Assembly (NCBI RefSeq): GCF_011682045.1
Contig: NZ_VVIW01000003.1
Location: forward strand, 248,001-312,000
Direction of reading: 5' to 3'
Length of the DNA: 64,000 nt
Source of the DNA: Massilia aquatica
GTDB taxonomy: Bacteria; Pseudomonadota; Gammaproteobacteria; Burkholderiales; Burkholderiaceae_D
The translations under genes and the position numbers were made by a program. A model generated the notes under the pieces. That model was not told the DNA's origin. It searched no databases and was given only the letters and a program-made list of their open reading frames with translations. Below are positions 3,306 to 36,246 of the stretch, in pieces. The first letter of the stretch is position 1. The number at the start of each line of letters is the position of its first letter.

Positions 3306-4382
3306 ATGATCAATTCACTCAAGCGCCTGTTCGCCCGCCCCCAGGCTGTCGTTCCGGCCGCGCCGACCGGCGCGACGACTCTCTACAACATCTACTGCAC
3401 GCGCCACACCATCGCGCAGCCGGCCTTTGCGCACGAACTGCAAGGGCGGCGCGACCTGTCCGACAGCGAGCTGCTGGTGCACCTGCACGGCTTTTGCGGC
3501 TATGTGTTCAGCCGCGGCACGGAAGCGATGACGCGCGATAAATACCACGTCATCCTGCACATGCAGCGGGTCCAGCATCACCTGAGCATGGAAGTGGCCG
3601 AGGATGCGCTGCCCGAGCTGCACGCCTGGGCGCGCGACGCGAACGCGCTGCTGTTCACGCCGGACGGCCACGTGCGCGACCCGGACGGCCATGTGCTGAT
3701 CAACGTCGCCGACGGCCAGGCCGCTGCCGATGCCAGGGTGCCGTATCCGGCCAAGGCGTGGACGCGCAAGAGCGCCACCGAAGCCATGCTGGCCGCGCGC
3801 GGCATTGCGGTGCCCGACAGCCTGCCGCCGCTGGCGTGCGAAGAAGAAGTAACCCTGCGCGAGCGCGACGAAGTGATCGGCCGCGCGCGCGCCCTGCTGC
3901 TGGTGGCCCTGCGCGCCGAATCGGTGGCGGCGGGCGAGCCGATGCCGGTCGCCACCCTGCTCGATAAAATGCCGCTGGCGGACGACAGCCTGTCGCCGGC
4001 CGAACGCACTTTTCTCGCGCTGGAGTCGCCCTCCGAGCACGAGTGCGCGCAGTTCCTGTGGCGTTACGAAAGCCTGTACGTGCTGCAGTGGGCGCTGGGC
4101 ATGGTCGACGAGCTGCCGTATCCGGACGCGCCGTGCGACACCGCCGCCGCGGTGGCGCGCCAGATCGAGATGCGCGGGCCGCAATTGCGCGACGCCAGCC
4201 AGATCGTCGACGCGCTCGACCAGACCTACCGCCTGCACTGGAATATCCGCCAGATCCGCCTGAAAAAGACCGGCGCCGACTTCGGGGCGGATGCCGACGT
4301 GGTGATGGAACGCCACCATGCCCTGAACTGGCTGGTGCGCTTCCAGCACGCCGACTGGGACTTCGTCGACACGCCGACTTAG
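3306..4382 (+). CDS. DUF4272 domain-containing protein
   Basis: 358 residues, soluble, no signal peptide. The second half carries the pattern I associate with DUF4272: [73 protein letters not shown], and the C-terminal [12 protein letters not shown]. The function of the family is unknown to me. The ATG at 3306 fits the protein (MINSLKRLF); the longer frame from 3240 reads through a non-coding leader. Its stop overlaps the stop of the convergent macro-domain gene by 3 bases. Confidence 0.8.
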
Positions 4383-4915
4383 CGCTTGATCAGTTCCGCC
4401 TCATACAGCGCCAGGTCGGCGGCCGAAAAACAGCAAAACACCACCTCGCGGATGCCAGGTGCGGCCAGCAGCGCCTCGCGCACGCTGGTCAGCGCCACGT
4501 TGGCGGCCAGTGCCGGCGGGTAGCCGTAGATGCCGGTGCTGATCGCCGGGAACGCGATCGACGCCAGCCCCCGCGCGGCGGCAATCCCGATGGCGTGCCG
4601 GTAGCAGCTCGCCAGCAGCGCCGCTTCGCCATTGTCTCCGCCGCGCCAGACCGGTCCGACCGTGTGGATGATGCATCTGGCGGCCAGCCGGTATGCGCCG
4701 GTGGCCTTGGCCTCGCCGGTCTTGCAGCCGCCGAGCAGGCGGCATTCGTGCACCAGTTCCGGCCCGGCCGCGCGGTGTATCGCGCCGTCGACCCCGCCGC
4801 CGCCCAGCAGGGACGAGTTGGCGGCGTTGACGATGGCATCGGCCGGCAAGGTGGTGATGTCGGCGCGTACGGCGCGCAGCAGTGCGCCATTCTGATGAAG
4901 CATGTCGTCGGTCAT
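4379..4915 (-). CDS. macro-domain protein, probable O-acetyl-ADP-ribose deacetylase
   Basis: 178 residues, single macro domain. Diagnostic motifs: [26 protein letters not shown] near residues 26-52 (Asn and GGGVDGAIH shape the ADP-ribose site), [22 protein letters not shown], and [15 protein letters not shown] near 130. Members hydrolyse O-acetyl-ADP-ribose or remove ADP-ribose from proteins (YmdB-like). I place the start at ATG 4915 because GGAG sits 6 bases upstream; the frame can be extended to a TTG at 4927 with no better support. The 3' end overlaps the convergent DUF4272 gene. Confidence 0.93.
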
Positions 4916-6374: not shown

Positions 6375-6415
6375 AAAAATGCCGCAGACGGGATCAACCC
6401 GCGTGCGGCATTTTT
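6375..6415 (-). terminator. rho-independent terminator after phaZ
   Basis: 12 bp stem (AAAAATGCCGCA/TGCGGCATTTTT) enclosing a smaller CGGG/CCCG hairpin, with seven T on the minus strand. It starts 17 bases after the phaZ stop. Confidence 0.85.
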
Positions 6416-6431
6416 GGGAAGCGGGCTGAAA

Positions 6432-7667
6432 TCAGCCGTGCTTCTGGATGAATTCGCCGATCTTCGGGCAAATCACTTCGCGCCAGCGACGGCCCGAGAA
6501 GATGCCGTAGTGGCCGCATTTCGGCGCCACGAAATCCTGCTGCATGTCGGCCGGAATGCCGCTGCACAGATCGTGCGCGGCCTGGGTCTGGCCGGCGCCG
6601 GAGATGTCGTCCAACTCGCCTTCGACCGTAAACAGCGCCACTGTGGTGATGTCCTGCGGACGCACCAGGTTGCCGCCGACGGTCCACGTGCCCTTCGGCA
6701 GGCGGTGTTCCTGGAACACGGTCTTGATGGTGTCCAGATAGTACTCGGCCGGCATGTCGAGCACCGCGTTGTACTCGTTGTAGAACTGGCGATGGCCTTC
6801 GGCCGGCTCGTCGTCGCCCGCCACCAGGTGGTTGTAGAACTCGCGGTGGCTCTGCGCGTGGCGGCCCGGGTTCATGGCGATGAAGCCGGCGTGCTGCAGG
6901 AAGCCCGGATACACCTTGCGCCCGAAGCCCGGATAGTTGGCCGGCACCGCGTAGATCACGGTGTTTTCGAACCACGAAAACGGCTTTTCGATGGCCAGGT
7001 CGTTGACCGCGGTGGGCGACTTGCTCGGGTCGATCGGGCCGCCCATCATGGTCATGGTTTTCGGCAGCTGCGGATCCTTGGCGGTAGCCATCAGCGAGAT
7101 CGCGGCCAGCACCGGCACGGTCGGCTGGCACACCGAAATGACATGCAGATCGGGTGCGAGCAGGCGGATGAAATCCTGCACGTAGTAGATATAGTCGTCC
7201 AGGTGGAACGGACCCTCGGTCAGCGGCACCATGCGCGCATCGGTCCAGTCGGTGATATACACGTCATGGCCGGTCAGCAGGCCGCGCACGGTATCGCGCA
7301 GCAGGGTCGAATGGTGGCCCGACAGCGGCGCGACCAGCAGCACTTTCGGCTGGCCCAGTTTTTCAATCGCCTTGTCGTTCAGGTCTTTTTTGAAGTGCAG
7401 CAGGCGGCAGAACGGACGGGTCTGGACGACCTGCTCCATGATGCCGACCGTTTCGCCGTCGATGACGGTCGATGTGATGTCGAAAGCGGGTTTTTCGTAA
7501 TCCTTGCCGAGTCGGTACATCAGCTCGTAGCCAGCGGCGATACGCTGCGCGAACGGCGTGTGCGCGAACGGCGACACCGGATTGGAAAACAGTTTGGATG
7601 AGGCGTCGGCCCACTGCATCAGTGGCGTCAGGAATGAGCGTTGCATCTCGTGCAATTGGTAAAGCAT
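6432..7667 (-). CDS. phaZ: intracellular polyhydroxyalkanoate depolymerase
   Basis: Mobilises stored polyhydroxybutyrate granules in the cytoplasm. 411 residues, the usual size of PhaZ from Ralstonia-type bacteria. It has the family's cysteine nucleophile instead of serine: VCQPT with Cys180. Asp353 (EGELDDISG) and His386 (CGHYGIFSGRRW) complete the triad, very close to the positions known for the Ralstonia enzyme. No signal peptide. ATG 7667 is preceded by AAGGAA at good spacing; the upstream extension of the frame has no support. It has its own terminator and a candidate -10 box upstream. Another PHA-linked gene lies at 11163-11444. Confidence 0.95.
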   Translation of the reverse strand: MLYQLHEMQRSFLTPLMQWADASSKLFSNPVSPFAHTPFAQRIAAGYELMYRLGKDYEKPAFDITSTVIDGETVGIMEQVVQTRPFCRLLHFKKDLNDKAIEKLGQPKVLLVAPLSGHHSTLLRDTVRGLLTGHDVYITDWTDARMVPLTEGPFHLDDYIYYVQDFIRLLAPDLHVISVCQPTVPVLAAISLMATAKDPQLPKTMTMMGGPIDPSKSPTAVNDLAIEKPFSWFENTVIYAVPANYPGFGRKVYPGFLQHAGFIAMNPGRHAQSHREFYNHLVAGDDEPAEGHRQFYNEYNAVLDMPAEYYLDTIKTVFQEHRLPKGTWTVGGNLVRPQDITTVALFTVEGELDDISGAGQTQAAHDLCSGIPADMQQDFVAPKCGHYGIFSGRRWREVICPKIGEFIQKHG

Positions 7668-7937: not shown

Positions 7938-9035
7938 TCAGTCGAACGTCGGCGTTTCGACACCCAGGATCTTGTGCAGTTTCGGCGACGTGGTCGTGTA
8001 CTGCATGTGGATCTTTTTATCCGGGAAGATGTACGGCGCCGCACCGAAGGCAGCCAGCGCCGCTTCGTGGAAGCCCGACAGAATCAGTTTTTTCTTGCCC
8101 GGATAGGTGTTGATATCGCCCACCGCAAAAATACCCGGCACGTTGGTTTCGAACTTCTCGGTGTTCTGCACCTTGAGCTGGCGGCGCTCGATGTCCAGGC
8201 CCCATTCGGCGATCGGGCCGAGTTTTGGCGACAGGCCGAAGAACACCAGCAGCATGTCGAGCGGTACGCGGCGGGTCACGCCGTCGGCGCCGGTGACTTT
8301 CACTTCGCTCAGCTTGCCGTCTTTTTCATCGAAGCCGGTGACCTGGCCGATAATCAGCTGCATTTCGTACGCTTCGCACAGGGCCTTCATCTTGGCCACC
8401 GAGGCCGGCGCGGCGCGGAAGTCTTCGCGGCGGTGCAGCAGCACCACCGATTCGGCCTTGCCCACGAAATTGAGGGCCCAGTCCAGCGCCGAGTCGCCGC
8501 CGCCGCAGATGATCAGGTTCTTGCCTTCGAACTGGCTCGGATCCTTGACCTTGTAGTGCACCTGAGTGCCGTCGAAGGCGTCGATGCCGTCGACCTTGAT
8601 CGTGCGCGCCTGGAACGAACCGACGCCGGCCGCGATGAAGATGGTCTTGGTGATGAACTGGGTGCCGGTCGAGGTTTCAACGTTGAAACGGCCGTCTTCG
8701 CGGCGCTGCACCACGGTCACTTCCTGGTTCAGGTGGAAGGTCGGCTCGAACGGTTCGATCTGCTTGAGCAGGTTGTCGGTCAGTTCCTGGCCGGTACACA
8801 CCGGTACCGCGGGGATGTCGTAGATCGGCTTGTCGGGATACAGTTCCACGCACTGGCCGCCCACGGCCGGCAGCGAATCGATCACATGGGCCTTAATTTC
8901 CAGCAAGCCGAGCTCGAACACCTGGAACAATCCGACCGGGCCTGCGCCGATGATCACGGCATCGGACTCGATGGCGCCGGCAAAGGAACTATTGGCAGCG
9001 ACGCTGCCTGCTTCGTGGTTGGCGATGATAGTCAT
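7938..9035 (-). CDS. ferredoxin--NADP+ reductase, thioredoxin-reductase-like (YumC type)
   Basis: Flavoenzyme moving electrons between NADPH and ferredoxin. 365 residues with two Rossmann motifs: FAD-binding [17 protein letters not shown] near residue 27 and NADPH-binding [14 protein letters not shown] near 172. The C-terminal flavin motif is [23 protein letters not shown]. The CxxC redox centre of thioredoxin reductase is absent, as expected for this class. The start is supported by AGGAAG upstream. The next gene upstream on the same strand encodes ferredoxin FdxA, its plausible redox partner. Confidence 0.94.
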
Positions 9036-9194
9036 GCGCTTACTTCCTGTTGATTTTGGGGTGGGGTTGCTGCTTGCAGCGCTGCATCGGGCGTTGTCGC
9101 GGATGGCCGACAGTGTGCCACGATGGAGACGATCTTGCTGGCGCGAACCCTGGCGCCGGCCCGCGAGGGCGGTCCGGCGGGGCTGCTGGCTGGC

Positions 9195-26777: not shown

Positions 26778-28259
26778 ATGAAACCAATCTGGATAGTCGA
26801 CGACGACGCCTCCATCCGCTGGGTGCTTGAAAAAGCCCTGGCACGCGAGAACCTCGCGACCAAAAGCTTTTCGAACGCGCGCGATGCGATGGCGGCGCTC
26901 GAATTCGATACGCCGCAAGTGCTGGTGTCCGACATCCGCATGCCGGGCGAGTCGGGGCTGGACCTGCTGCAGACGGTCAAGGCCAGCTATCCCGGCCTGC
27001 CGGTCATTATCATCACCGCGTTCTCCGACCTCGATTCGGCCGTCGCCGCCTTCCAGGGCGGGGCGTTCGAATACCTGGCCAAGCCGTTCGACATCGACAA
27101 GGCGGTCGAACTGATTCGCCGCGCGCTGGAGGAAAGCCTGCGCGAGACCAGCGTCGAATCGGGACCGACCGACACCCCCGAAATCCTGGGCCAGGCCCCG
27201 GCCATGCAGGAAGTGTTCCGCGCCATCGGGCGCTTGTCGCAGTCGAACGTGACGGTGCTGATTACCGGCGAATCGGGCACCGGCAAAGAACTGGTGGCGC
27301 GCGCGCTGCACAAGCACAGTCCGCGCGCGCAGCAGCCTTTCATCGCCCTGAACACCGCGGCGATTCCGAAGGACTTGCTCGAATCGGAATTGTTCGGCCA
27401 CGAACGCGGCGCCTTTACGGGGGCGCAGACCACGCGCCGCGGGCGCTTCGAGCAGGCCGAAAACGGCACCTTGTTTTTGGATGAAATCGGCGACATGCCG
27501 TTCGACCTGCAAACGCGTTTGCTGCGGGTGCTCTCGGACGGCCACTTCTACCGGGTCGGCGGGCACCAGCCGATGAAGGCCAATGTGCGCGTCATCACCG
27601 CCACCCACCAGAACCTGGAACAGCGCGTGCGCGACGGCCTGTTTCGCGAAGACTTGTACCACCGCCTGAACGTGATCCGCCTGCGCCTGCCCAGTTTGCG
27701 GGAGCGGCGCGAAGATATCCCCCTTTTGGTGCGCCACTTCCTGGTGCAGAGCGCGCGCCAGCTCGGGGTCGAGGCCAAGCGCATGAGCGACCCGGCGCTG
27801 CATTTCCTCACAGGGCTCGACTTGCCGGGCAATGTGCGCCAGCTGGAAAACCTGTGCAACTGGATCACCGTGATGGCGCCCGGGCAGACGGTCGATGTCA
27901 AGGACATGCCGCTCGAACTGACGCAGGAAGGCGCGGCCGACACGGCGCTGCCGCCGGCCCCGGGCGAGAGCGCGGCGCCGCAGGGCGCCATGGCTGACGG
28001 CGGCGCCGGCATGGCGGCGCTGAACGCGGCCGGCGGCTGGATCGGTTTGCTGGAGCTGCAGGCGGCCGGCATGCTGGCGGCGGGGCAGTCGGAAGTGATG
28101 GACGTGCTGGGACGGCAGTTCGAGTCGGCCCTGATCAAGACGGCGCTCAAGCACACGCACGGGCGCAAGAACGATGCGGCGGTGCGCCTCGGGATCGGGC
28201 GCAATACCATCACGCGCAAGATCGCCGAACTGGGGATCGACGGCGCCAAGGACGAATAG
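26778..28259 (+). CDS. glnG: nitrogen regulator NtrC (sigma-54 activator)
   Basis: 493 residues in three domains. The receiver has acidic residues DDD (8-10), phosphorylated Asp52 and Lys102. The AAA+ domain has Walker A GESGTGKE (164-171), the sigma-54 contact loop GAFTGA (211-216), FLDEIGDMP Walker B, and NLPGNVRQLEN-like GLDLPGNVRQLEN. A C-terminal Fis-type helix-turn-helix (ALKHTHGRKNDAAVRLGIGRNTITRKI) binds enhancers. The linker before the DNA-binding domain is Ala/Gly/Met-rich. It should activate the sigma-54 promoter found upstream of glnA in this same window. The ATG at 26778 begins at the conserved MKPIWIVDDD. Confidence 0.97.
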   Translation: MKPIWIVDDDASIRWVLEKALARENLATKSFSNARDAMAALEFDTPQVLVSDIRMPGESGLDLLQTVKASYPGLPVIIITAFSDLDSAVAAFQGGAFEYLAKPFDIDKAVELIRRALEESLRETSVESGPTDTPEILGQAPAMQEVFRAIGRLSQSNVTVLITGESGTGKELVARALHKHSPRAQQPFIALNTAAIPKDLLESELFGHERGAFTGAQTTRRGRFEQAENGTLFLDEIGDMPFDLQTRLLRVLSDGHFYRVGGHQPMKANVRVITATHQNLEQRVRDGLFREDLYHRLNVIRLRLPSLRERREDIPLLVRHFLVQSARQLGVEAKRMSDPALHFLTGLDLPGNVRQLENLCNWITVMAPGQTVDVKDMPLELTQEGAADTALPPAPGESAAPQGAMADGGAGMAALNAAGGWIGLLELQAAGMLAAGQSEVMDVLGRQFESALIKTALKHTHGRKNDAAVRLGIGRNTITRKIAELGIDGAKDE

Positions 28260-28340
28260 GGCGGTGACGGGCGGCGGGCGCGTGCCCCGTCCCCGTACGG
28301 CATGGTGTAAGCTTCTGTCCAATTTATTGTTGGAACCATC

Positions 28341-29306
28341 ATGCTGATCAACTGCGTCGCCTACCAGGAAGGCAAAAAGCTGTCCGACATTTCCGTCGAA
28401 GCCATCAGCGACTACATCCAAAAACCCGACTGCTTCGTGTGGGTGGCCCTGAAGGACGCCCAGCCGGACGAACTGGCCATCATGCAGCACGAATTCGGCC
28501 TGCACGAACTGGCGGTGGAAGACGCGCTGCGCGGCCACCAGCGTCCCAAGATCGAGGAGTACGGCGATTCGCTGTTCGTGGTGGTGCAGACCGTGGAAAC
28601 CGATGGCGATGAACTGAGCGTGGGCCAGGTGGCCATGTTCGTCGGCGAGAACTACGTGCTCTCGGTGCGCAATAACGTGATGCGCGGTTTTCTCGGCGTG
28701 CGCGCGCGCGCCGAACGCGAGCCGCACCTGCTGGCGAAGGGGTCGTCGTTCGTGCTGTACGCGCTGATGGATGCGGTGGTGGACCGTTATTTTCCGGTGG
28801 TCGACGTGCTCGAATCGGAACTCGAAACCATCGAAGACCGGATTTTCATTCGCGGCTCGCAGCGCGACAATATCGAGCGCCTGTATGAACTCAAGCGCAA
28901 GGTGCTGGTGCTGCGCCACGCGGTCACGCCGCTGCTCGACGCCATCGGCAAGCTGCATGGCGGGCGCGTGCCTTCGTTTTGCCGCGACACCCAGGAATAC
29001 TTCCGCGACGTGCACGACCACCTGCAGCGCATCAACGCCTCGCTCGACACCATTCGCGACACCATCGGCACGGCGATCCAGGTCAATCTGTCGATGGTGG
29101 CCATCGACGATGGCGAAGTCAATAAGCGGCTGGCCGCATGGGCCGCGATCTTCGCGGTGTTTACCGCGTTTGCCGGTGTGTGGGGGATGAACTTCGAATT
29201 CATGCCGGAGCTGAAATGGCATTTCGGCTACCTGGCCGCATTGTGCATCATGATCAGCGTGTGCTTCTACCTGTATTATCGGTTCAGGAAGTCGGGCTGG
29301 CTGTAG
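28341..29306 (+). CDS. corA: CorA family magnesium/cobalt transporter
   Basis: 321 residues, normal length. A large N-terminal cytoplasmic domain with long stalk helices (LYELKRKVLVLRHAVTPLLDAIG; VHDHLQRINASLDTIRDTIG) leads to two C-terminal membrane helices. The signature GMN loop occurs in FAGVWGMNFEFMPEL near residue 285. Forms a pentameric inner-membrane channel for Mg2+. Single gene, about 80 bases after ntrC. Confidence 0.95.
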   Translation: MLINCVAYQEGKKLSDISVEAISDYIQKPDCFVWVALKDAQPDELAIMQHEFGLHELAVEDALRGHQRPKIEEYGDSLFVVVQTVETDGDELSVGQVAMFVGENYVLSVRNNVMRGFLGVRARAEREPHLLAKGSSFVLYALMDAVVDRYFPVVDVLESELETIEDRIFIRGSQRDNIERLYELKRKVLVLRHAVTPLLDAIGKLHGGRVPSFCRDTQEYFRDVHDHLQRINASLDTIRDTIGTAIQVNLSMVAIDDGEVNKRLAAWAAIFAVFTAFAGVWGMNFEFMPELKWHFGYLAALCIMISVCFYLYYRFRKSGWL

Positions 29307-29654
29307 CCGCAGCGCCGACGATGCCGGCCTCTTAAAAGACGCGCATGAACTCGATAGAGATTACCTCACCGCCGCCGCGCCGCGCCATGGTGGCGGTGGC
29401 CGAAGCCGGCCGCGGCGGATGCACCGCCCGTGATACGCGGTGCCAATGCCGCCACTTGGTAATGCGTAGCGCTGCATGCCACTACTTTCCCACGCCAGCA
29501 CTTATCAAGCTCCGGCATTGACGCGTTCCCATTTGTTTTCCTGATTTATGCATTTTGCATATATTACTTTGCCCAGAAACTTAAATTGCCGCAAGCCAAA
29601 TTTATATCAATGACGATAGCAAGTGGCAGCGACAATCAAAATGATAGAAAATAA
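29307..29654. other. AT-rich intergenic region before the peptide genes
   Basis: The first ~190 bases keep the GC-rich composition; the sequence from about 29520 is AT-rich. A 58-codon open frame (29345-29521) has no ribosome site and no recognisable features. No other gene, repeat or insertion-sequence end seen. Confidence 0.6.
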
Positions 29655-29683
29655 ATGACGCACCATTAATTTTGCTCTAGAAT
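29655..29683 (+). promoter_or_regulatory. putative promoter of the double-glycine peptide genes
   Basis: ATGACG (-35, four of six) and TAGAAT (-10, five of six) are separated by 17 bp. Transcription would begin near 29690, giving a leader of about 185 bases before the first peptide gene. Confidence 0.5.
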
Positions 29684-29694
29684 AAGATCATAGA

Positions 29695-29873
29695 CAGGCA
29701 AGATTGATGATCTATAAAGCCACTTGCACTTGCAAGCGTGCTGGTGGCATATCTGTCAAAGCGTCCTGTTTGTGGCTCGATGGGAAAATACCCGCCGGCC
29801 ATGATAAGGCGCCGATGATGGGCAGGTTTTTGCGATGCTGTTTGACTTTTTAAATGCTGATTAAGGAATACCG
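29695..29873 (+). promoter_or_regulatory. structured leader of peptide gene 1
   Basis: 179 bases. GATCTATAAAGCCAC is followed by a GCAC/GTGC inner stem closed by GCCAC/GTGGC, then GTCAAAGCGTCCTG, a GGG-AAAATA-CCC hairpin and AGGCGCCGATGATGG, all shared with the second leader. AAGGA lies 7 bases before the ATG. An internal 9-codon frame (29835-29864, MLFDFLNAD) ends just before the ribosome site. No known riboswitch class recognised. Confidence 0.5.
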
Positions 29874-30059
29874 ATGCGCGCATTGAATATGACTGAACTG
29901 GACTATGTTTCGGGTGGCGATGGAGATGGTAACGCCAACGACAACGCTGGCAACAATGGCACAGTGGGCCCTAATCCAGGCTCCGGCCCCGTGAACCCAC
30001 CGTTTATCCCGACCGAACCATGGGTCGATAGCGATGGCAACATTAACTTTCCTCCTTGA
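29874..30059 (+). CDS. double-glycine leader peptide 1 (putative exported peptide precursor)
   Basis: 61 residues. The leader MRALNMTELDYVSGG ends in Gly-Gly with conserved-type hydrophobic spacing (L4, M6, L9, V12), as in substrates of C39-peptidase exporters. Cleavage after GG would release a 46-residue peptide starting DGDGNANDNAG and ending in PPFIPTEPWV then a DGN-containing tail and PP. It has six acidic residues, no Lys/Arg and no Cys, so it is unlike cationic bacteriocins and cannot form disulfides or lanthionines. AAGGA precedes the ATG. The exporter genes are at 30746-34297 on the other strand. Toxin, signal or other role is undetermined. Confidence 0.8.
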   Translation: MRALNMTELDYVSGGDGDGNANDNAGNNGTVGPNPGSGPVNPPFIPTEPWVDSDGNINFPP

Positions 30060-30084
30060 TACTTCAAAGTAATTTGCTGATTCG

Positions 30085-30124
30085 ACGGGATATTTCTTGA
30101 GATATCATTCAAGAAAAATCCCGT
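30085..30124 (+). other. hairpin after peptide gene 1
   Basis: ACGGGATATTTCTTGA pairs with TCAAGAAAAATCCCGT with one mismatch. No T-run follows, so it may be a processing or stability element rather than a terminator. The same arms recur after peptide gene 2. Confidence 0.65.
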
Positions 30125-30131
30125 TCACAGG

Positions 30132-30321
30132 CAGGCAAGATTGACTGATCTATAAAGCCACCGGCACTGCGCACCTTGCCGGTGTGCTTGTGGCATAGCG
30201 GTCAAAGCGTCCTGATTGTGGATTGATGGGTAAATACCCTTTGGCCACGATCAGGCGCCGATGATGGACAGATTGTTTACGGATGCTGTTCGAATTTTTA
30301 AATGCTGATAAAGGATTGCCG
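30132..30321 (+). promoter_or_regulatory. structured leader of peptide gene 2
   Basis: 190 bases homologous to the first leader. The outer GCCAC/GTGGC stem is kept while the inner stem is different in sequence but still pairs (CCGGCA/TGCCGG). The GGG-TAAATA-CCC hairpin and AGGCGCCGATGATGG are conserved. AAGGA precedes the ATG. Here the MLFEFLNAD frame (from 30283) lacks the stop codon and reads in frame into the peptide. Confidence 0.5.
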
Positions 30322-30525
30322 ATGCGCGCATTGAATGTGACTGAACTGGACTATGTTTCAGGTGGTGAGGGGGATAATAACGCCAACGACAACGCTGGCG
30401 GAAATGACGCACCTCCCCGTAATGGGAGCTCCGGCCCTGTCACCCCCTCCAGCCCCGTCTATCCTCCGTTTATCCCGACCCAGCCATGGGTAGGTGAGGA
30501 TGGCAACACCAACCATCCGCCTTGA
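30322..30525 (+). CDS. double-glycine leader peptide 2 (putative exported peptide precursor)
   Basis: 67 residues, paralogue of the preceding gene. The leader MRALNVTELDYVSGG differs by one residue. The 52-residue core begins EGDNNANDNAGG, has a longer Pro/Ser-rich middle, and keeps PPFIPTQPWV near the end followed by GEDGN and HPP. Six acidic residues against one Arg and one His; no Cys. I start at 30322 to match gene 1 and its ribosome site, but an ATG at 30283 in frame would add 13 residues (MLFEFLNADKGLP). No immunity-type gene lies beside it. Confidence 0.8.
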   Translation: MRALNVTELDYVSGGEGDNNANDNAGGNDAPPRNGSSGPVTPSSPVYPPFIPTQPWVGEDGNTNHPP

Positions 30526-30549
30526 TAATACAAAGTTGTTCCTGATTCG

Positions 30550-30615
30550 ACGGGTATTTCTTGAGATAACACGCGTCGGCGCCTCGTCGACGATGATCAG
30601 TCAAGAATAATCCCG
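30550..30615 (+). other. hairpin after peptide gene 2
   Basis: Arms ACGGGTATTTCTTGA and TCAAGAATAATCCCGT match those after gene 1, but the loop is about 28 bases longer and itself contains a GGCGCC-centred palindrome (around 30573-30592). Confidence 0.6.
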
Positions 30616-30635
30616 TTGAATTGCATCCTGCCTGC

Positions 30636-30666
30636 GAATCAGCGCTACGCTGATTCATTATTTTTT
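30636..30666 (+). terminator. rho-independent terminator of the peptide gene unit
   Basis: Perfect 9 bp stem GAATCAGCG/CGCTGATTC with a CTA loop, followed by ATTATTTTTT. Placed between the second peptide gene and the convergent exporter gene. Confidence 0.88.
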
Positions 30667-30745
30667 CTTGGTCCGCTGTAAAAATCCGCAACAGCCTTCC
30701 ATTCCCCTGCTTCTTGCTGCGAGCGCACCGATCGCCGCCATTGCC

Positions 30746-32872
30746 TTATACCGGCGCTAATACCTTATCGATGTGAATGTCCCTGTCCATCTCGGGGCTG
30801 CGCAGTTCGACAAGTTGACCGCCGCGTAATTCCACCACCCTTTGCGCCGATGCAATCGTTTCCGGGCGGTGCGCGACCATGATGCAGGTGAGGTGAAGTT
30901 CGCTGATGGCGTGGTTGACTCTTTTTTCGTTGTTGATATCGAGGTGGCTGGTCGCTTCGTCCAGCGCCAGGACGCGTGGCGCCTTGTACAAGGCGCGCGC
31001 CAGCAGGATGCGCTGTTTTTGTCCGCCGGACAGGCTGCTTCCCATGTCCCCGACCAAGGTTTGATATCCCATTGGCATGGCGGCGATCTCATCGTGTACC
31101 GCCGCCATCCGCGCGCACTGTTCAACGCGCTGCGCATCCCTGGTGTCGGCGAAAAAACTGATATTGTCGAGAATCGACCCGGCCAGCAACACATCGTCCT
31201 GCATCACCGTTCCCACCAATTGCCGGAACGTCCGCAAGCCGAGCTGGCGTACCGGAATGCCGTCGATGCATACCTCGCCTTCGGTCGGTTCCAGCAAGCC
31301 GATCAGGATCTTGCACAGGGTGGTCTTGCCGCAACCGCTGGCGCCCACCAGGGCGATACTCTGGCCGGCCGGAATCGACAGGTTGACCTTGTCGAGCACC
31401 CAGGGCTCGCCTTCGGCATAGCGGAACCTGACATTTTTCAAGGTCAGGGACGGCTTGATGCGACTGATGTCGGTCTCGGTGACGGACTCGGGCTCGGTGT
31501 CTTCCAACACGATGTCGGCCAGCCGTTCGGCATGCATGCCGAGCATTTTGACGTTGATCGACAGATCGATCAGACTCATGATCCGGCTTGAGAACGTCGC
31601 CGCGTAACTGGTGAAGGCCAGCAGCATCCCGATCGACAGCGCGTTATCCATGACCAACCCGGCCCCGACATAAAACAGCGCCAGGCTCTGTACCCCGGCA
31701 ATGGCGGTATTGGAAATCTTGAAGGCGATGCCGATTTTTTGCGTCTTGATGTCCCGGTTGATGACGTCCTGTTTCATGTTCTGCCATCTGGCACAGCGCT
31801 CCGCTTCGCGGCCAAACAGCTTGAGCGGGACAATGGCGCGGATCGTTTCCAGGAAATTGGTGTTTTCCTTGGCGGACAGCACCAGGCGCTCGCGCGATGC
31901 TTCCCGCAGCGGGTGGTAGAAGGCCCAGCGCAGCAGTGCATACAGCACGACGCCGATCACCACGATCACGCACAGCTTCGGGCTATACAGCAGCATCATG
32001 CCGAACGCCATCAGCGCCATGACGCCATCGAGCACGCTTTCGACGCACAGGCTCGTGAGCGTGCCCTGAATCGCGCCGATACTGCCGAAGCGGGACACGA
32101 TGTCGCCCACATGGCGTTTTTCAAAATAGCTCACGGGCAGACGGGTCATGTGGGCGAACACCCGGGTCGCCCATTGGAAGCCGATGTCGATACTCCAGCG
32201 CATCAGGAACCAGCTGCGTGCCAGTCCGATGGCCGTCTGGGTAATCAGCAGCAAGGCGAAACCGCACACCAGCACCTTGAGTAATTCACGATCCCCGCTG
32301 ACGATGACTTCGTCGACCACGAACTGATTGAACAGCGGCATGACGATGGCGAACACCTCGAGCGCAAGCGCGAGCATGATGACTTGCACCATGGCCCGTC
32401 GCAGTCCGATGATTTTGCCTGCCAGCTCGCGCACGGAGATGCGCCGCGCGATGTCTTCTTTTTTGAACGCCGGGGTCGGGCACAATTCCAGCGCCACGCC
32501 GGTAAAATGCTGCGACACCTCGTCCAGGCCCATGCGGCGCTCGCCTGCGGCTGGATCGAGAATCACCACGGTGACGGCCCCGCCCAGGCTCCTGGTGATC
32601 TTTTTCAGTACCACGAAGTGGTTGAGATCCCAGTGCAGGATGCACGGTGTTTTCAGCTCGTCCAGCTCGGAAAGATCAAGCCGCAGCGGGCGCGCCGCCA
32701 GGTGCATGGCAGCGCCGTGACGGATCAGCTGATTGAGGGTGGCCCCTTTCAGGCTGATCGCGAATTTGCGCCGCAGATCGCTCAAATCGGCGTGATAGCC
32801 GAAATGGTTCGCGACCATCGCCAGGCAAGTCAGGCCGCATTCGCTTGATTCAGTTTGTAAGATGGACTTCAT
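30746..32872 (-). CDS. C39-peptidase-containing ABC exporter (CvaB-like)
   Basis: 708 residues. It removes double-glycine leaders and exports the mature peptide across the inner membrane. The N-terminal C39 peptidase has Gln6 and Cys12 (QTESSECGLTC), His85 (LHWDLNHFVVLKK) and Asp106 (ILDPAAGE), a complete catalytic set. A six-helix ABC membrane domain spans about 160-430 and includes the coupling segment RLPVSYFEKRHVGDIVSRFGS. The ATPase domain has Walker A GASGCGKTT, Q-loop, signature LSGGQ, Walker B VLALDEAT and switch His (MVAHRPET). It lies 75 bases downstream of the HlyD-type gene in one operon and faces two GG-leader peptide genes, its likely substrates. No outer-membrane TolC gene is in the window. 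Confidence 0.95.
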   Translation of the reverse strand: MKSILQTESSECGLTCLAMVANHFGYHADLSDLRRKFAISLKGATLNQLIRHGAAMHLAARPLRLDLSELDELKTPCILHWDLNHFVVLKKITRSLGGAVTVVILDPAAGERRMGLDEVSQHFTGVALELCPTPAFKKEDIARRISVRELAGKIIGLRRAMVQVIMLALALEVFAIVMPLFNQFVVDEVIVSGDRELLKVLVCGFALLLITQTAIGLARSWFLMRWSIDIGFQWATRVFAHMTRLPVSYFEKRHVGDIVSRFGSIGAIQGTLTSLCVESVLDGVMALMAFGMMLLYSPKLCVIVVIGVVLYALLRWAFYHPLREASRERLVLSAKENTNFLETIRAIVPLKLFGREAERCARWQNMKQDVINRDIKTQKIGIAFKISNTAIAGVQSLALFYVGAGLVMDNALSIGMLLAFTSYAATFSSRIMSLIDLSINVKMLGMHAERLADIVLEDTEPESVTETDISRIKPSLTLKNVRFRYAEGEPWVLDKVNLSIPAGQSIALVGASGCGKTTLCKILIGLLEPTEGEVCIDGIPVRQLGLRTFRQLVGTVMQDDVLLAGSILDNISFFADTRDAQRVEQCARMAAVHDEIAAMPMGYQTLVGDMGSSLSGGQKQRILLARALYKAPRVLALDEATSHLDINNEKRVNHAISELHLTCIMVAHRPETIASAQRVVELRGGQLVELRSPEMDRDIHIDKVLAPV

Positions 32873-32947
32873 GGATTGGCCAGGGAGGGCGAAAAAATAA
32901 GCGAGGCGGGCGCGCTGCGCCGTGCATGCGGAGGGAAGGTCATCGAC

Positions 32948-34297
32948 TTACCTGGCGGGGAGCGACGCCAGCACCGGTTCAAGTATCCACTCCCATATCT
33001 TGCGGCGGTCCTGCTGGACATCGGCATCGAGCGTCATGCCGGGTTTGAGCGCTTGCTCGCTGCCGTAGGTCTTGATGGTTTGTCTGGCCAGCCTGACCTT
33101 GATCCGGTACATGCCTTCGTTCGGATTGACGCCATGAATATTCTGCTGGGCGTTACTGAGAATGGTGCTGGCGACGTTTGACGGCAATTCATTCGGCGCG
33201 AACGGGGTTTTGCTGACATCGATGATCGTTCCTTGCTGAAGCCCGAATTTTTGATAGGGATAGGCTTGATATCGAATCAGCACTTCCTGGCCGGGCGCGA
33301 CGAATCCGGCGGTACGGCTGTGGGCATACAGATGCACTTGCAGTTCACTGCCGGCAGCGCTGGCGGCGTCGTCGGGAATGAGCGTGGCCAGCACCTGTCC
33401 CGCGTTGACCAGCTGGCCTGCCTGATAGGTGACCGTGGTAATCACGCCATCGTGCGGCGCCACGATCTGGCTGGCCTTGCGATTCTGGTTCTCGGCCAGT
33501 TCCTGGTCCAGCGAGGCGACTGCGCGGTCGAGTTGCGCCATCATGGATTGATGATTGGCTGTCACATCGTTTTTTTCCGACTCCAGACTCATCCTGGCAG
33601 AAGTGAGTTGGACCCGGGTCCTGGTCAGGGTGCTGATGCGGGAAGTCAGATCGAGCACGTCTTCCAGTTTCTGCTGCGACTGGGTAGGCGACACAAAGCC
33701 GCTGCTTTGCAGCGTTTCAAATTTTTCCAGGCTCTTTTGCGCCAGCGCCAGGCGTTTTTGCGCCAGCACCAGTTCTTGATCAATCTGTTCCGCTTCCATG
33801 TTCCAGTTAATCAGACGGGCCTCGACGCTGCGGCGTTTGTCATTATCCTGGGCGATGCGGGTCATGCGCTCCGTTTCCAGCGTTTGCTTGCGGATCGCTA
33901 ACTGCTGGCCGATCAGCGCCGTGATTTCGCCCTTGCTGCCCTGGCGCTCCATCGATAAATCGAACAAGACCTGGCCTTCCCTGACGCGCTGGCCTTCGCG
34001 CACATGGCTGCGCACCAGCACGCCGGCATTGAGGGCGCTGATGGTCAGGCTGCCGCCGGCCGGCGTGGTAATGCCTGAGATGCGCGCCTTTTTGGTGAAA
34101 CTGCCCCAGGTAATAAAGGCGAGCAGGAGCGCGGCAATCGCCACTGCGCAACAGGCGATCAGCGCACTGGAAACCGGCTGCGCCAACCGGATTGCTCCGA
34201 TCCATTGCGCATTTTTGGAGGCGAATACTTCCTGGCGAAACAGGGCTTGCTGCGGCGGGACGGGGGAGGGCTGGGCTGCGGTATCGGAATCTTGCAT
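32948..34297 (-). CDS. HlyD-family periplasmic adaptor (CvaA-like)
   Basis: 449 residues. A short cytoplasmic N-terminus, one membrane helix (about 43-65, VSSALIACCAVAIAALLLAFITW), a lipoyl half-motif (GGSLTISALNAGVLVRSHVREGQRVREGQVLF), then long coiled coils (about 125-265). A second lipoyl half follows (SQIVAPHDGVITTVTYQAGQLVNAGQVLATLIP), and a beta-barrel C-terminus. It should bridge the ABC exporter to an outer-membrane TolC-type channel. First gene of the export operon, with a strong promoter about 170 bases upstream. Confidence 0.93.
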   Translation of the reverse strand: MQDSDTAAQPSPVPPQQALFRQEVFASKNAQWIGAIRLAQPVSSALIACCAVAIAALLLAFITWGSFTKKARISGITTPAGGSLTISALNAGVLVRSHVREGQRVREGQVLFDLSMERQGSKGEITALIGQQLAIRKQTLETERMTRIAQDNDKRRSVEARLINWNMEAEQIDQELVLAQKRLALAQKSLEKFETLQSSGFVSPTQSQQKLEDVLDLTSRISTLTRTRVQLTSARMSLESEKNDVTANHQSMMAQLDRAVASLDQELAENQNRKASQIVAPHDGVITTVTYQAGQLVNAGQVLATLIPDDAASAAGSELQVHLYAHSRTAGFVAPGQEVLIRYQAYPYQKFGLQQGTIIDVSKTPFAPNELPSNVASTILSNAQQNIHGVNPNEGMYRIKVRLARQTIKTYGSEQALKPGMTLDADVQQDRRKIWEWILEPVLASLPAR

Positions 34298-34611
34298 GGG
34301 GCAGGTCGTTGCGCAGCATTCGCCAGTGCACGCGCAAGAAAAGGCGCGTGCAGATCTGGAAGAAACGATTGGGAGATATCGGCAAGTCCGCCTATGCGGA
34401 ATGGGTAAAACCCGGATCGCATTTCAATTCAAATGAAATGGTTTTTAAGTCCACATTTCTTTTTCTAAATTATAAACGATTTGCCAGGAAGGTCAAAAAT
34501 CCCGTTGCGGTTTTTTATATGAATGCATATTGAAACCAGATGGCGCTGCCGCCATTGCTGCGGCAAAGGCTGGCGCTGCGCCGGCGCCGCCGGAAGCGGC
34601 GCCGGCGTGGC
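34298..34611. other. intergenic region upstream of the export operon
   Basis: 314 bases, AT-rich from about 34425 to 34535. Holds the export-operon promoter described separately; no other gene seen. Confidence 0.6.
34469..34496 (-). promoter_or_regulatory. promoter of the HlyD/C39 exporter operon
   Basis: On the minus strand TTGACC (-35, five of six; 34496-34491) and a perfect TATAAT (-10; 34474-34469) are 16 bp apart. The start would be near 34462, leaving a 165-base leader. Confidence 0.7.
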
Positions 34612-36246
34612 TCATGCCGCCATCGACAAGGCGACCGCCTCGGCCACTTTGATGCCGTCCACCGCCGCCGACAAGATGCCGCCCGCGTAGCCGGCCCCTT
34701 CGCCGGCCGGGAACAGGCCGCGCGTGTTCAGGCTCTGCAGGTTGTCGTCGCGCCGTTTGATGCGGATCGGCGACGAGGTGCGCGTTTCCACGCCGGTCAG
34801 TACGGCGTCTTCCTGGTAGTAGCCGCGAATCTGCTTGTCGAACGCCGGAAAGGCTTCGCGCATGGCGACGATGGCGTAGTCGGGCAGGGCGGTGGCCAGG
34901 TCGGTCAGGTGCACCGCCGGCTTGAACGACGGCACCACCGAACCGAAGGCGGTCGAGGCGCGGCCCTTGACGAAGTCGCCCATCAGCTGGCCCGGCGCGT
35001 CGTAGGTGCCGCCGCCGAGCGCGAACGCGCCTTCTTCCAGGCGGCGCTGCAGGGCAATGCCGGCCAGCGGGTGGCCCGGGTTGTCGATATAGTCGGCCGG
35101 GGTAATCCCGACCACGATGGCGCTGTTGGCATTTCTTTCGTTGCGCGAGTACTGGCTCATGCCGTTGGTAACCACGCGGCCCGGCTCCGAGGCGGCCGCC
35201 ACCACCGTACCGCCCGGGCACATGCAGAAGCTGTACACCGAGCGGCCGTTAGCGGCGTGGTGCACCAGTTTATAGTCGGCCGCGCCGAGGATCTTGTTGC
35301 CGGCGTTCGGACCGAAACGGCAGGCGTCGATCAGCGACTGCGGGTGCTCGACCCGGAAACCGACCGAAAACGGCTTCGCTTCAATATACACACCGCGCTC
35401 GTACAGCATCTCGAACGTGTCGCGCGCGCTGTGGCCGATGGCCAGCACCACGTGGCGGGTCGGAATATGCTCGCCGCTGGCCAGGATCACGGCGCGGATC
35501 TGGCGCGCGTCTCCCTCGCCCTCGACCTCGATATCGGCGACCTTGCTCTCGAAGCGGTACTCGCCGCCCAGGGCGATGATGTTTTCGCGCATCTGTTCGA
35601 CCATCTTGACCAGGCGGAAGGTGCCGATGTGCGGTTTGCTCACATACATGATTTCGTCCGGCGCGCCAGCCTTGACGAATTCGGTCAGCACCTTGCGTCC
35701 GTAATGCTTGGGGTCCTTGATCTGGCTGTACAGCTTGCCGTCGGAAAAGGTCCCGGCCCCGCCTTCGCCATACTGCACGTTCGATTCCGGATTCAGTTCG
35801 CGCTTGCGCCAGAAACCGAAGGTGTCGACGGTGCGCTCGCGCACCACCTTGCCGCGTTCGAGAATCAGCGGGCGCAGGCCCATCTGGGCCAGGATCAGCG
35901 CCGCGAACAGGCCGCACGGCCCGGTGCCGATCACCACCGGGCGCTCGCTCTGGTCGTGGCCCTGCAACTGCTCGCCGCCGGCCACGAAGGTGTAGCTGGT
36001 GTCGGGCGCCGGCAGGATGTGGGCGTCGTGCTTGAGGCGGGCCAGCAGCGCGGCCTGGTCGCGCACCTCGGCGTCGACCGCATAGATCAGGACGATGGCC
36101 GTGCGTTTGCGCGCGTCGTAGCTGCGTTTGAATACACTAAAACCCAGCAAGTCGGCGTCGGCAATGCCGAGGCGCGCCAGAATGGCCTGGCGCAGGTCGG
36201 CGTCGGCATGGTCGAGCGGGAGTTTGAGTTCGTTAATTCGCAGCAT
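34612..36246 (-). CDS. FAD-dependent oxidoreductase (uncharacterised NAD(P)/FAD family)
   Basis: 544 residues. The FAD motif VVIGTGPCGLFAALILAQMGLRPLILERG begins near residue 103. It is preceded by a conserved ~95-residue N-terminal domain starting MLRINELKLPLDH, typical of a widespread family of uncharacterised flavoproteins. Other conserved segments are VQYGEGGAGTFSDGKLYSQIKD, GHSARDTFEMLYERGV, YSFCMCPGGTVVAAASEPG and GLFPAGEGAGYAGGILSAAVDGI. The ATG at 36246 gives the conserved start; the extension to 36357 is not supported. Substrate unknown. Confidence 0.88.
   Translation of the reverse strand: MLRINELKLPLDHADADLRQAILARLGIADADLLGFSVFKRSYDARKRTAIVLIYAVDAEVRDQAALLARLKHDAHILPAPDTSYTFVAGGEQLQGHDQSERPVVIGTGPCGLFAALILAQMGLRPLILERGKVVRERTVDTFGFWRKRELNPESNVQYGEGGAGTFSDGKLYSQIKDPKHYGRKVLTEFVKAGAPDEIMYVSKPHIGTFRLVKMVEQMRENIIALGGEYRFESKVADIEVEGEGDARQIRAVILASGEHIPTRHVVLAIGHSARDTFEMLYERGVYIEAKPFSVGFRVEHPQSLIDACRFGPNAGNKILGAADYKLVHHAANGRSVYSFCMCPGGTVVAAASEPGRVVTNGMSQYSRNERNANSAIVVGITPADYIDNPGHPLAGIALQRRLEEGAFALGGGTYDAPGQLMGDFVKGRASTAFGSVVPSFKPAVHLTDLATALPDYAIVAMREAFPAFDKQIRGYYQEDAVLTGVETRTSSPIRIKRRDDNLQSLNTRGLFPAGEGAGYAGGILSAAVDGIKVAEAVALSMAA

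Follow-up and report, generated by a model that had tools for sequence, protein, structure and literature searches.

A probable class II microcin-type export cassette with replaced, duplicated cargo in Massilia aquatica

What does a microcin-type export machine carry when the peptides encoded beside it do not look like microcins? The question is raised by a locus in a 64-kb stretch of DNA from Massilia aquatica (positions 248001–312000 of contig NZ_VVIW01000003.1, hereafter the window; source genome 7.47 Mb), in which two short open reading frames (ORFs), P1 and P2, encode double-glycine precursors on the + strand and run convergent with an adaptor-exporter operon on the − strand. We consider that the locus is probably an export cassette of the class II microcin (double-glycine) type in which other cargo has taken the place of the original. 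The machine is of a known kind; what is new is that a hydrophilic, duplicated cargo stands where the orthologous site of a sister species has a toxin-like peptide, and the peptides are not proven microcins.

The precursors and their exporter

29874–30059, + strand: precursor P1, 61 residues, with double-glycine leader MRALNMTELDYVSGG and a 46-residue acidic mature peptide
30322–30525, + strand: precursor P2, 67 residues, with double-glycine leader MRALNVTELDYVSGG and a 52-residue acidic mature peptide
30746–32872, − strand: C39 peptidase-containing ABC exporter, 708 residues (Pfam, catalytic residues, 6mpz alignment)
32948–34297, − strand: HlyD-type periplasmic adaptor, 449 residues (HlyD_3, 9.2e-15; TIGR01843 below its cut-off)

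A prior reading of the DNA from its letters alone (the sequence-only reading) had described two ORFs with near-identical double-glycine leaders, and both are present with ribosome sites: an AAGGA motif stands ahead of the ATG in each, the start of P2 being taken as the in-frame ATG at 30322 (the mechanically called ORF begins upstream, at 30283). The leaders agree at 14 of 15 residues and both carry V at −4, L at −7 and L at −12 and end in GG; the colicin V leader is similar in length and pattern. A strict leader scan of the window (E/D, spacing, hydrophobic −12, ATG and ribosome site) passed only P1 and P2, and 100 dinucleotide-preserving shuffles of the window gave a mean of 0.01 leader matches, with two in none of them; by this comparison the leader pair is not due to chance.

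The exporter has Gln6, Cys12, His85 and Asp106 in place, a Walker A motif at 510 and LSGGQ at 614, and matches the Pfam models Peptidase_C39 (1.6e-32), ABC_membrane (1.6e-39) and ABC_tran (7.5e-32); the earlier claim of an intact C39 exporter with an HlyD adaptor was borne out by residues and Pfam domains alike. A solved double-glycine protease domain, 6mpz, aligns with its C39 domain at 2e-15, and ComA and further bacteriocin exporters do so less strongly. The features of Gram-negative double-glycine export, namely a leader of 15–18 residues ending in GG or GA, the C39-ABC catalytic residues and an adjoining HlyD-type adaptor, are all found here. Two further C39-ABC exporters are encoded in the source genome (contigs C44, locus L055, and C22, locus L056), and the scan of 18–19 kb around each passed no double-glycine peptide with ATG and ribosome site.

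By analogy with these families, P1 and P2 would be made as full-length precursors, the C39 domain would cut after Gly15, and the ABC exporter and HlyD adaptor, with a TolC-type channel encoded elsewhere, would release the cargo in one step as acidic, mostly disordered peptides.

The two mature peptides, with calculated masses of about 4,603 Da (P1) and 5,311 Da (P2), have the same isoelectric point (4.05) and no Cys; the grand average of hydropathy is −0.94 for P1 and −1.21 for P2, Asn plus Pro make up 39% and 37% of residues, and Gly 17% and 13%. The description of the cargo as acidic, Asn/Gly/Pro-rich, Cys-free and non-hydrophobic, and in this different from colicin V and the class II bacteriocins, holds. 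We compared 44 distinct double-glycine peptides passing the strict filter, taken from the window (its own pair included) and loci L037–L138, nearly all around related C39 exporters and with some loci representing the same place twice. The window pair takes the top two places in Asn plus Pro content (the next peptide has 24%) and comes first and fourth for hydrophilicity; some of the loci, when scanned more loosely, yield further double-glycine peptides, which the strict filter dropped. Hydrophilic cargo is not unique to the window, since peptides at L091 and L044 are also hydrophilic. An AlphaFold model of P1, built on a two-row alignment, is helix-free and mostly of low confidence, with higher values in blocks of the C-terminal ~20 residues (41–61; predicted local distance difference test, pLDDT, 81, 91 and 76), where two-residue strands are predicted to flank a DSDGN turn and form a hairpin-like tail; a fold search with this model returned no solved structure at E ≤ 0.001.

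The cassette site in sister species

The cassette measures about 5.3 kb and lies between corA and an FAD-dependent oxidoreductase gene (Pfam FAD-depend_C). A search for the corA protein across 17 genomes from the genus, the source genome included, gave a match in 14; the site was fetched from six of the 12 other corA-positive genomes, plus genome G148. In all six congeners corA adjoins the oxidoreductase gene, with a gap of about 75 to 1,065 nt, and none has an exporter or adaptor match in the 9.5–10.5 kb taken at the site. The next gene at these cassette-free sites encodes a TonB-dependent receptor, 78–86% identical to that of the window in five and 39% in G094. Genes for a sigma-54-type response regulator, CorA and the TonB-dependent receptor (Pfam) flank the cassette and are also present where it is absent; within it only the two precursors, the exporter and the adaptor were recognised, overlapping ORFs not having been searched.

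The left edge retains a trace of what may have preceded the cassette:

29345–29521, + strand: 58-residue ORF, probable truncated remnant of a gene 149 residues long in the corA–oxidoreductase gap of the congener G138 (shared start)

The G138 ORF starts MNWIEITSPPPRR and the window ORF MNSIEITSPPPRR, after which they diverge; because the starts match, the cassette probably replaced or cut a gene of the G138 type. The gap at locus L186 aligns to the window up to ~29383 (91% over 143 nt), which puts the left cassette edge near that position. GC content is 0.51 in the precursor region and 0.633 across the window, and at third codon positions 0.55–0.57 in the precursors as against ~0.84 in corA and the oxidoreductase gene. 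Short direct repeats shared by the cassette edges reach 9 nt at most and were taken as chance.

At the same corA/oxidoreductase site G148 (same genus; locus L037) carries a cassette of its own, with identities to the window of 82% for the exporter, 76% for the adaptor, 94% for corA and 96% for the oxidoreductase. At the DNA level the alignment of the two cassettes extends over the exporter operon (72% over 3,480 nt) but, among the precursors, takes in nothing beyond the leader (47 nt with P1 and 45 nt with P2). The sole G148 precursor found by the scan (L037:6481–6822) joins the leader MRALNMSELDYVSGG to a 98-residue microcin-like core with a hydrophobic stretch, whose maximum 15-residue hydropathy is 2.63, compared with −0.09 and 0.19 in the window peptides; its model, of low overall confidence (54.5), has helices at 56–74 and 82–107. 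About 300 nt beyond it lies a 60-residue ORF (TTG start, L037:7127–7309) with two hydrophobic stretches by eye and no family match above cut-off, a candidate immunity or small membrane protein. A near-identical leader, MRALNMSELHYVSGG, also precedes another microcin-like core in a Burkholderiales metagenome-assembled genome (MAG; L093).

Conservation of the precursors in relatives, a point raised in the sequence-only reading, is divided: the mature sequences occur in no other genome searched, and the site, exporter and leader are common to G148. The cassette occupies a single site, which it fills in some species and not in others; between the window and G148 the leader, the exporter and probably a tail of about 14 residues are kept and the core differs. 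These orthologous loci would offer a natural test of an exporter's indifference to its cargo, and could show whether microcin-type exporters also serve non-toxic peptides.

Duplicated units and the search for relatives

The sequence-only reading was right to see a cognate peptide/exporter set, but the peptides are not two independent ones: judged from their alignment, P1 and P2 (74% identical over the whole precursors) are paralogues from duplication of a whole unit. Upstream region, ORF and post-stop hairpin recur together at a spacing of ~437–492 nt, linked by direct repeats D1–D8 that are 77–94% identical between units. The features around the ORFs, with the promoter-like site of the opposing operon, are as follows:

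29655–29683, + strand: weak promoter-like site ahead of the two peptide units (9 of 12 matches)
29688–29873, + strand: 5′ untranslated region ahead of P1 in unit 1, with a nominal start, which may be structured (folding z −2.30 for 29688–29890)
30084–30125, + strand: hairpin after P1, without a clear U-tract (z −5.41; 0 of 200 shuffles as stable)
30125–30321, + strand: 5′ untranslated region ahead of P2 in unit 2, a paralogue of the unit 1 region (repeats D1–D8, pairwise alignment)
30544–30622, + strand: hairpin after P2, its stem like that after P1 with a loop insertion (z −4.44)
30636–30656, + strand: intrinsic-terminator-like stem with T-rich tail (9 pairs, tail ATTATTTTTT)
34469–34496, − strand: promoter-like site of the adaptor-exporter operon (TTGACC-16-TATAAT, 11 of 12 matches)

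Between the two ORFs the nonsynonymous divergence (dN, NG86) is 0.20 and the synonymous divergence (dS) 0.49, a ratio of ~0.41, and the single alignment gap spans six codons and keeps the frame, which together fit coding sequence; 18 of 40 differences fall at third positions, an excess that is weak by itself. The ratio suggests mild constraint. In the upstream regions, the unit 2 copy with its first codons folds with z −2.40 against shuffles, and 3 of 62 consensus pairs in the aligned copies change on both sides, two of the three being adjacent in one hairpin; this is a hint, from two sequences only, of conserved RNA structure. Counts of promoter-like sites (4 found, 3.1 expected) and terminator-like sites (7 found, 5.7 expected) in the region are not above those in shuffles. 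An Rfam scan of 28000–36000 gave two sub-gathering matches, both outside the duplicated upstream region, and a comparison of the upstream DNA with 195 family genomes (own included) found only the two window copies matching over most of its length. Matches of 23–42 nt in 12 other genomes (E 7e-4 to 0.01; seven on one hairpin stretch) were taken as chance.

Relatives of the precursors were sought widely. A P1 and P2 profile run against 392 family genomes matched, besides the window, only G148, and there only in the leader; against 399 order genomes it gave 20 matches in 17 genomes besides the window's (E ≤ 0.05). Of these, 18 were read in the matched frame: 16 showed no such precursor by eye, and L162 and L166 have double-glycine leaders ahead of other cores. 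Neither P1 nor P2 matched Pfam or NCBIfam at E ≤ 1, a protein search of a plasmid collection with P1 only gave no match, and PHROGs gave one weak P1 match (E 0.013) of unknown function. In the 195 family genomes P2 matched, besides the window, only G044 (E 0.006), a match that has two internal stops and, from part of the stretch, was taken as composition; one PDB sequence match to P2 (MITSUBA-1, E 0.079) was disregarded. The open-access literature searched held no double-glycine report on Massilia, nor, among the matches listed, on Oxalobacteraceae.

Around exporters ~66–82% identical to that of the window, at least one strict-filter double-glycine peptide was found at 7 of 18 loci and none at 11, some of these exporters being partial or having an internal stop; the peptide cores appear by eye to vary from locus to locus. 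Several other peptide types came to light in the loci examined. Six double-glycine precursors of 28–29 residues surround one C39 exporter in Janthinobacterium MAG WB4_6_113 (L098, 6065–6481 and 10158–10773); their mature parts, of 13–14 residues and mostly (L/M)PESSVGG..., have the look of a small family of peptide signals that vary at their ends. A recurring type with a tail of approximately S.YG..DA.GYN.MGD lies near C39 exporters in Comamonadaceae/Burkholderiales (L112:4435–4644, L123:7719–7931, L130:7716–7928 and L135:3371–3580), and MGD also stands near the end of otherwise different double-glycine peptides at L096:6017–6202 and L134:4803–5048. Locus L040 encodes tandem GA-type precursors (6414–6740 and 6962–7279) with the same leader, a similar front half and different ends, one poly-Pro then poly-Gly; here too the leader is kept and the tail changed. 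At L050 two acidic double-glycine peptides (4221–4430 and 8946–9122) share GEEGGLP near an exporter 68% identical to that of the window.

Readings of the cargo and comparison with known systems

If the locus is an export cassette with replaced cargo, the peptides would probably act outside the cell at short range toward related bacteria, by receptor binding rather than membrane insertion. The site behaves as bacteriocin loci do, and for that reason we lean towards dealings with close relatives; competition may be the role, at rather less than an even chance, signalling is a tentative suggestion, and a surface or matrix role, or none at present, is likewise doubtful. Several observations weigh against this interpretation. 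The cargo is non-hydrophobic, A, V, L, I, M, F, W, C and G together making up 39% of mature P1 and 31% of mature P2, whereas PMC10233263 gives known microcins an average of 61.2% hydrophobic residues (its residue set may differ from ours). No immunity-like membrane ORF was found among ORFs of 40–220 residues in 29300–30760, as had been noted before: the only one above the hydropathy threshold is antisense to P2, and a 30-residue hydrophobic frame (30668–30760, TTG) runs into the end of the exporter gene and is truncated at the limit of the scanned stretch. Leader-only and composition matches aside, the mature peptides have no relatives in the 392 family and 399 order genomes, so that selection on their function is invisible beyond one paralogue pair. 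The tail is a further weak point. The summed score of the last 14 residues of P1 and P2 against G148 (42) is above all 20,173 other ORF C-termini from the fetched loci and was reached by 9 of 100,000 shuffles, but the likeness was spotted before being tested and the margin is slim (next score 41; four other C-termini also reach the better single score of 23). Homology of the tails is likely but not firm, and the G148 model has no tail hairpin, unlike that predicted for P1.

Were P1 and P2 instead true antibacterial class IIa microcins, with an immunity determinant elsewhere or unneeded, the leader type, the exporter and the microcin-like cargo at the G148 locus would all be accounted for. Their Gly contents fall within the range of 12–26% given in PMC11494933, and both leaders comply with its rule of hydrophobic residues at −4, −7 and −12 and a GG end. 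The missing immunity gene is not decisive either, as the review PMC10233263 names double-glycine peptide bacteriocins of Bacteroides that have no immunity protein and describes most microcins as neutral or anionic. The same review, however, quotes a mature length of 60–90 residues, longer than the 46–52 here. Neither an adjacent small membrane immunity protein (within 29300–30760) nor a hydrophobic core of 60–90 residues, as in class IIa, is found here, and the P1 model is helix-free and mostly of low confidence; nor do the C-termini, DGNINFPP and DGNTNHPP, form the Gly/Ser-rich end for siderophore attachment seen in class IIb. The missing core and immunity gene, as far as sequence can tell, speak against a classical microcin, and we regard this reading as on the unlikely side. 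A two-peptide bacteriocin was also thought unlikely, P1 and P2 being close paralogues and hydrophilic.

That the peptides are secreted pheromone-like signals with a receptor encoded elsewhere seems to us rather unlikely. They are small, soluble, duplicated and free of a toxin-like core, and related exporters also neighbour short hydrophilic (L091) or very short (L098) double-glycine peptides, yet no conservation of the mature parts was found, although a signal that binds a receptor should be conserved, the cassette holds no further recognised gene within the limits of the search, and the flanking regulator, corA and receptor genes stand at cassette-free sites too, even if the G094 receptor is the divergent one. 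An improbable alternative has the peptides coating the surface or entering the matrix, perhaps by way of a metal-binding Asp/Asn-rich N-terminal block and a C-terminal hairpin anchor; the acidic, Asn/Gly/Pro-rich composition and the predicted turn over residues 41–61 suit it, whereas neither the fold search nor Pfam and NCBIfam gave a match at the limits stated above and metal binding is a guess from composition. Most improbable is that P1 and P2 are decaying or non-functional remnants of a cargo swap: the constraint is mild and the upstream regions resemble each other about as closely as the ORFs do, but no ORF, ribosome site or leader of the pair is disrupted, the gap is in frame, and the exporter and adaptor frames are open with their motifs present.

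We return, then, to a microcin-type export cassette with replaced cargo. The acidic, hydrophilic nature of the cargo need be no obstacle to export, because small proteins are reported to pass the microcin V exporter largely regardless of chemistry (PMC10231218). A more ambitious form of this reading, about which we are doubtful, would make the corA/oxidoreductase site a cargo-swapping locus, where one exporter and leader serve unrelated cores in sister species and where, in the window, an acidic peptide pair, duplicated and not membrane-active, has taken over from a toxin core and works outside the cell in a way not known for microcins, each copy with its own structured, possibly regulatory 5′ untranslated region. 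Searches for class II microcins, as described in PMC11494933 and PMC13174018, are guided by Gly-rich, microcin-like cargo and nearby immunity candidates, and because of this reliance cassettes like that of the window could be missed or misread.

Among known systems, the microcin V system (CvaC/CvaA/CvaB/Cvi, class IIa) is similar in its C39-ABC exporter, HlyD-type adaptor and one-step export; the window differs in its hydrophilic, paired cargo of 46–52 residues, in showing no immunity gene and in the convergent orientation of cargo and exporter genes. Gram-negative double-glycine peptides with cognate transporters (Dirix et al. 2004) are defined in general by a precursor close to a C39 exporter and adaptor, and the window has that same layout with mature peptides that have no clear match in the libraries searched. 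In RaxX/RaxST/RaxA/RaxB of Xanthomonas, a 60-residue double-glycine precursor is exported by RaxB with RaxA from a 5-kb cluster that is proposed to have spread by lateral transfer (PMC6637879). The likeness lies in a short double-glycine precursor with exporter and adaptor in a cluster of about 5 kb; the window cassette differs in having no recognised sulfotransferase, and its mature peptides contain no Tyr (P1) or one (P2), on which grounds a RaxX-type mimic was rejected. The NHLP/NHLM exporters (TIGR03796, TIGR03794) share the C39-ABC architecture, and TIGR03796 is the top-scoring NCBIfam model for the window exporter; they differ in that both exporter (494 bits, cut-off 853.3) and adaptor (84.8 bits, cut-off 156.2) of the window fall below the cut-offs of these models and its precursors match no NCBIfam model at E ≤ 1.

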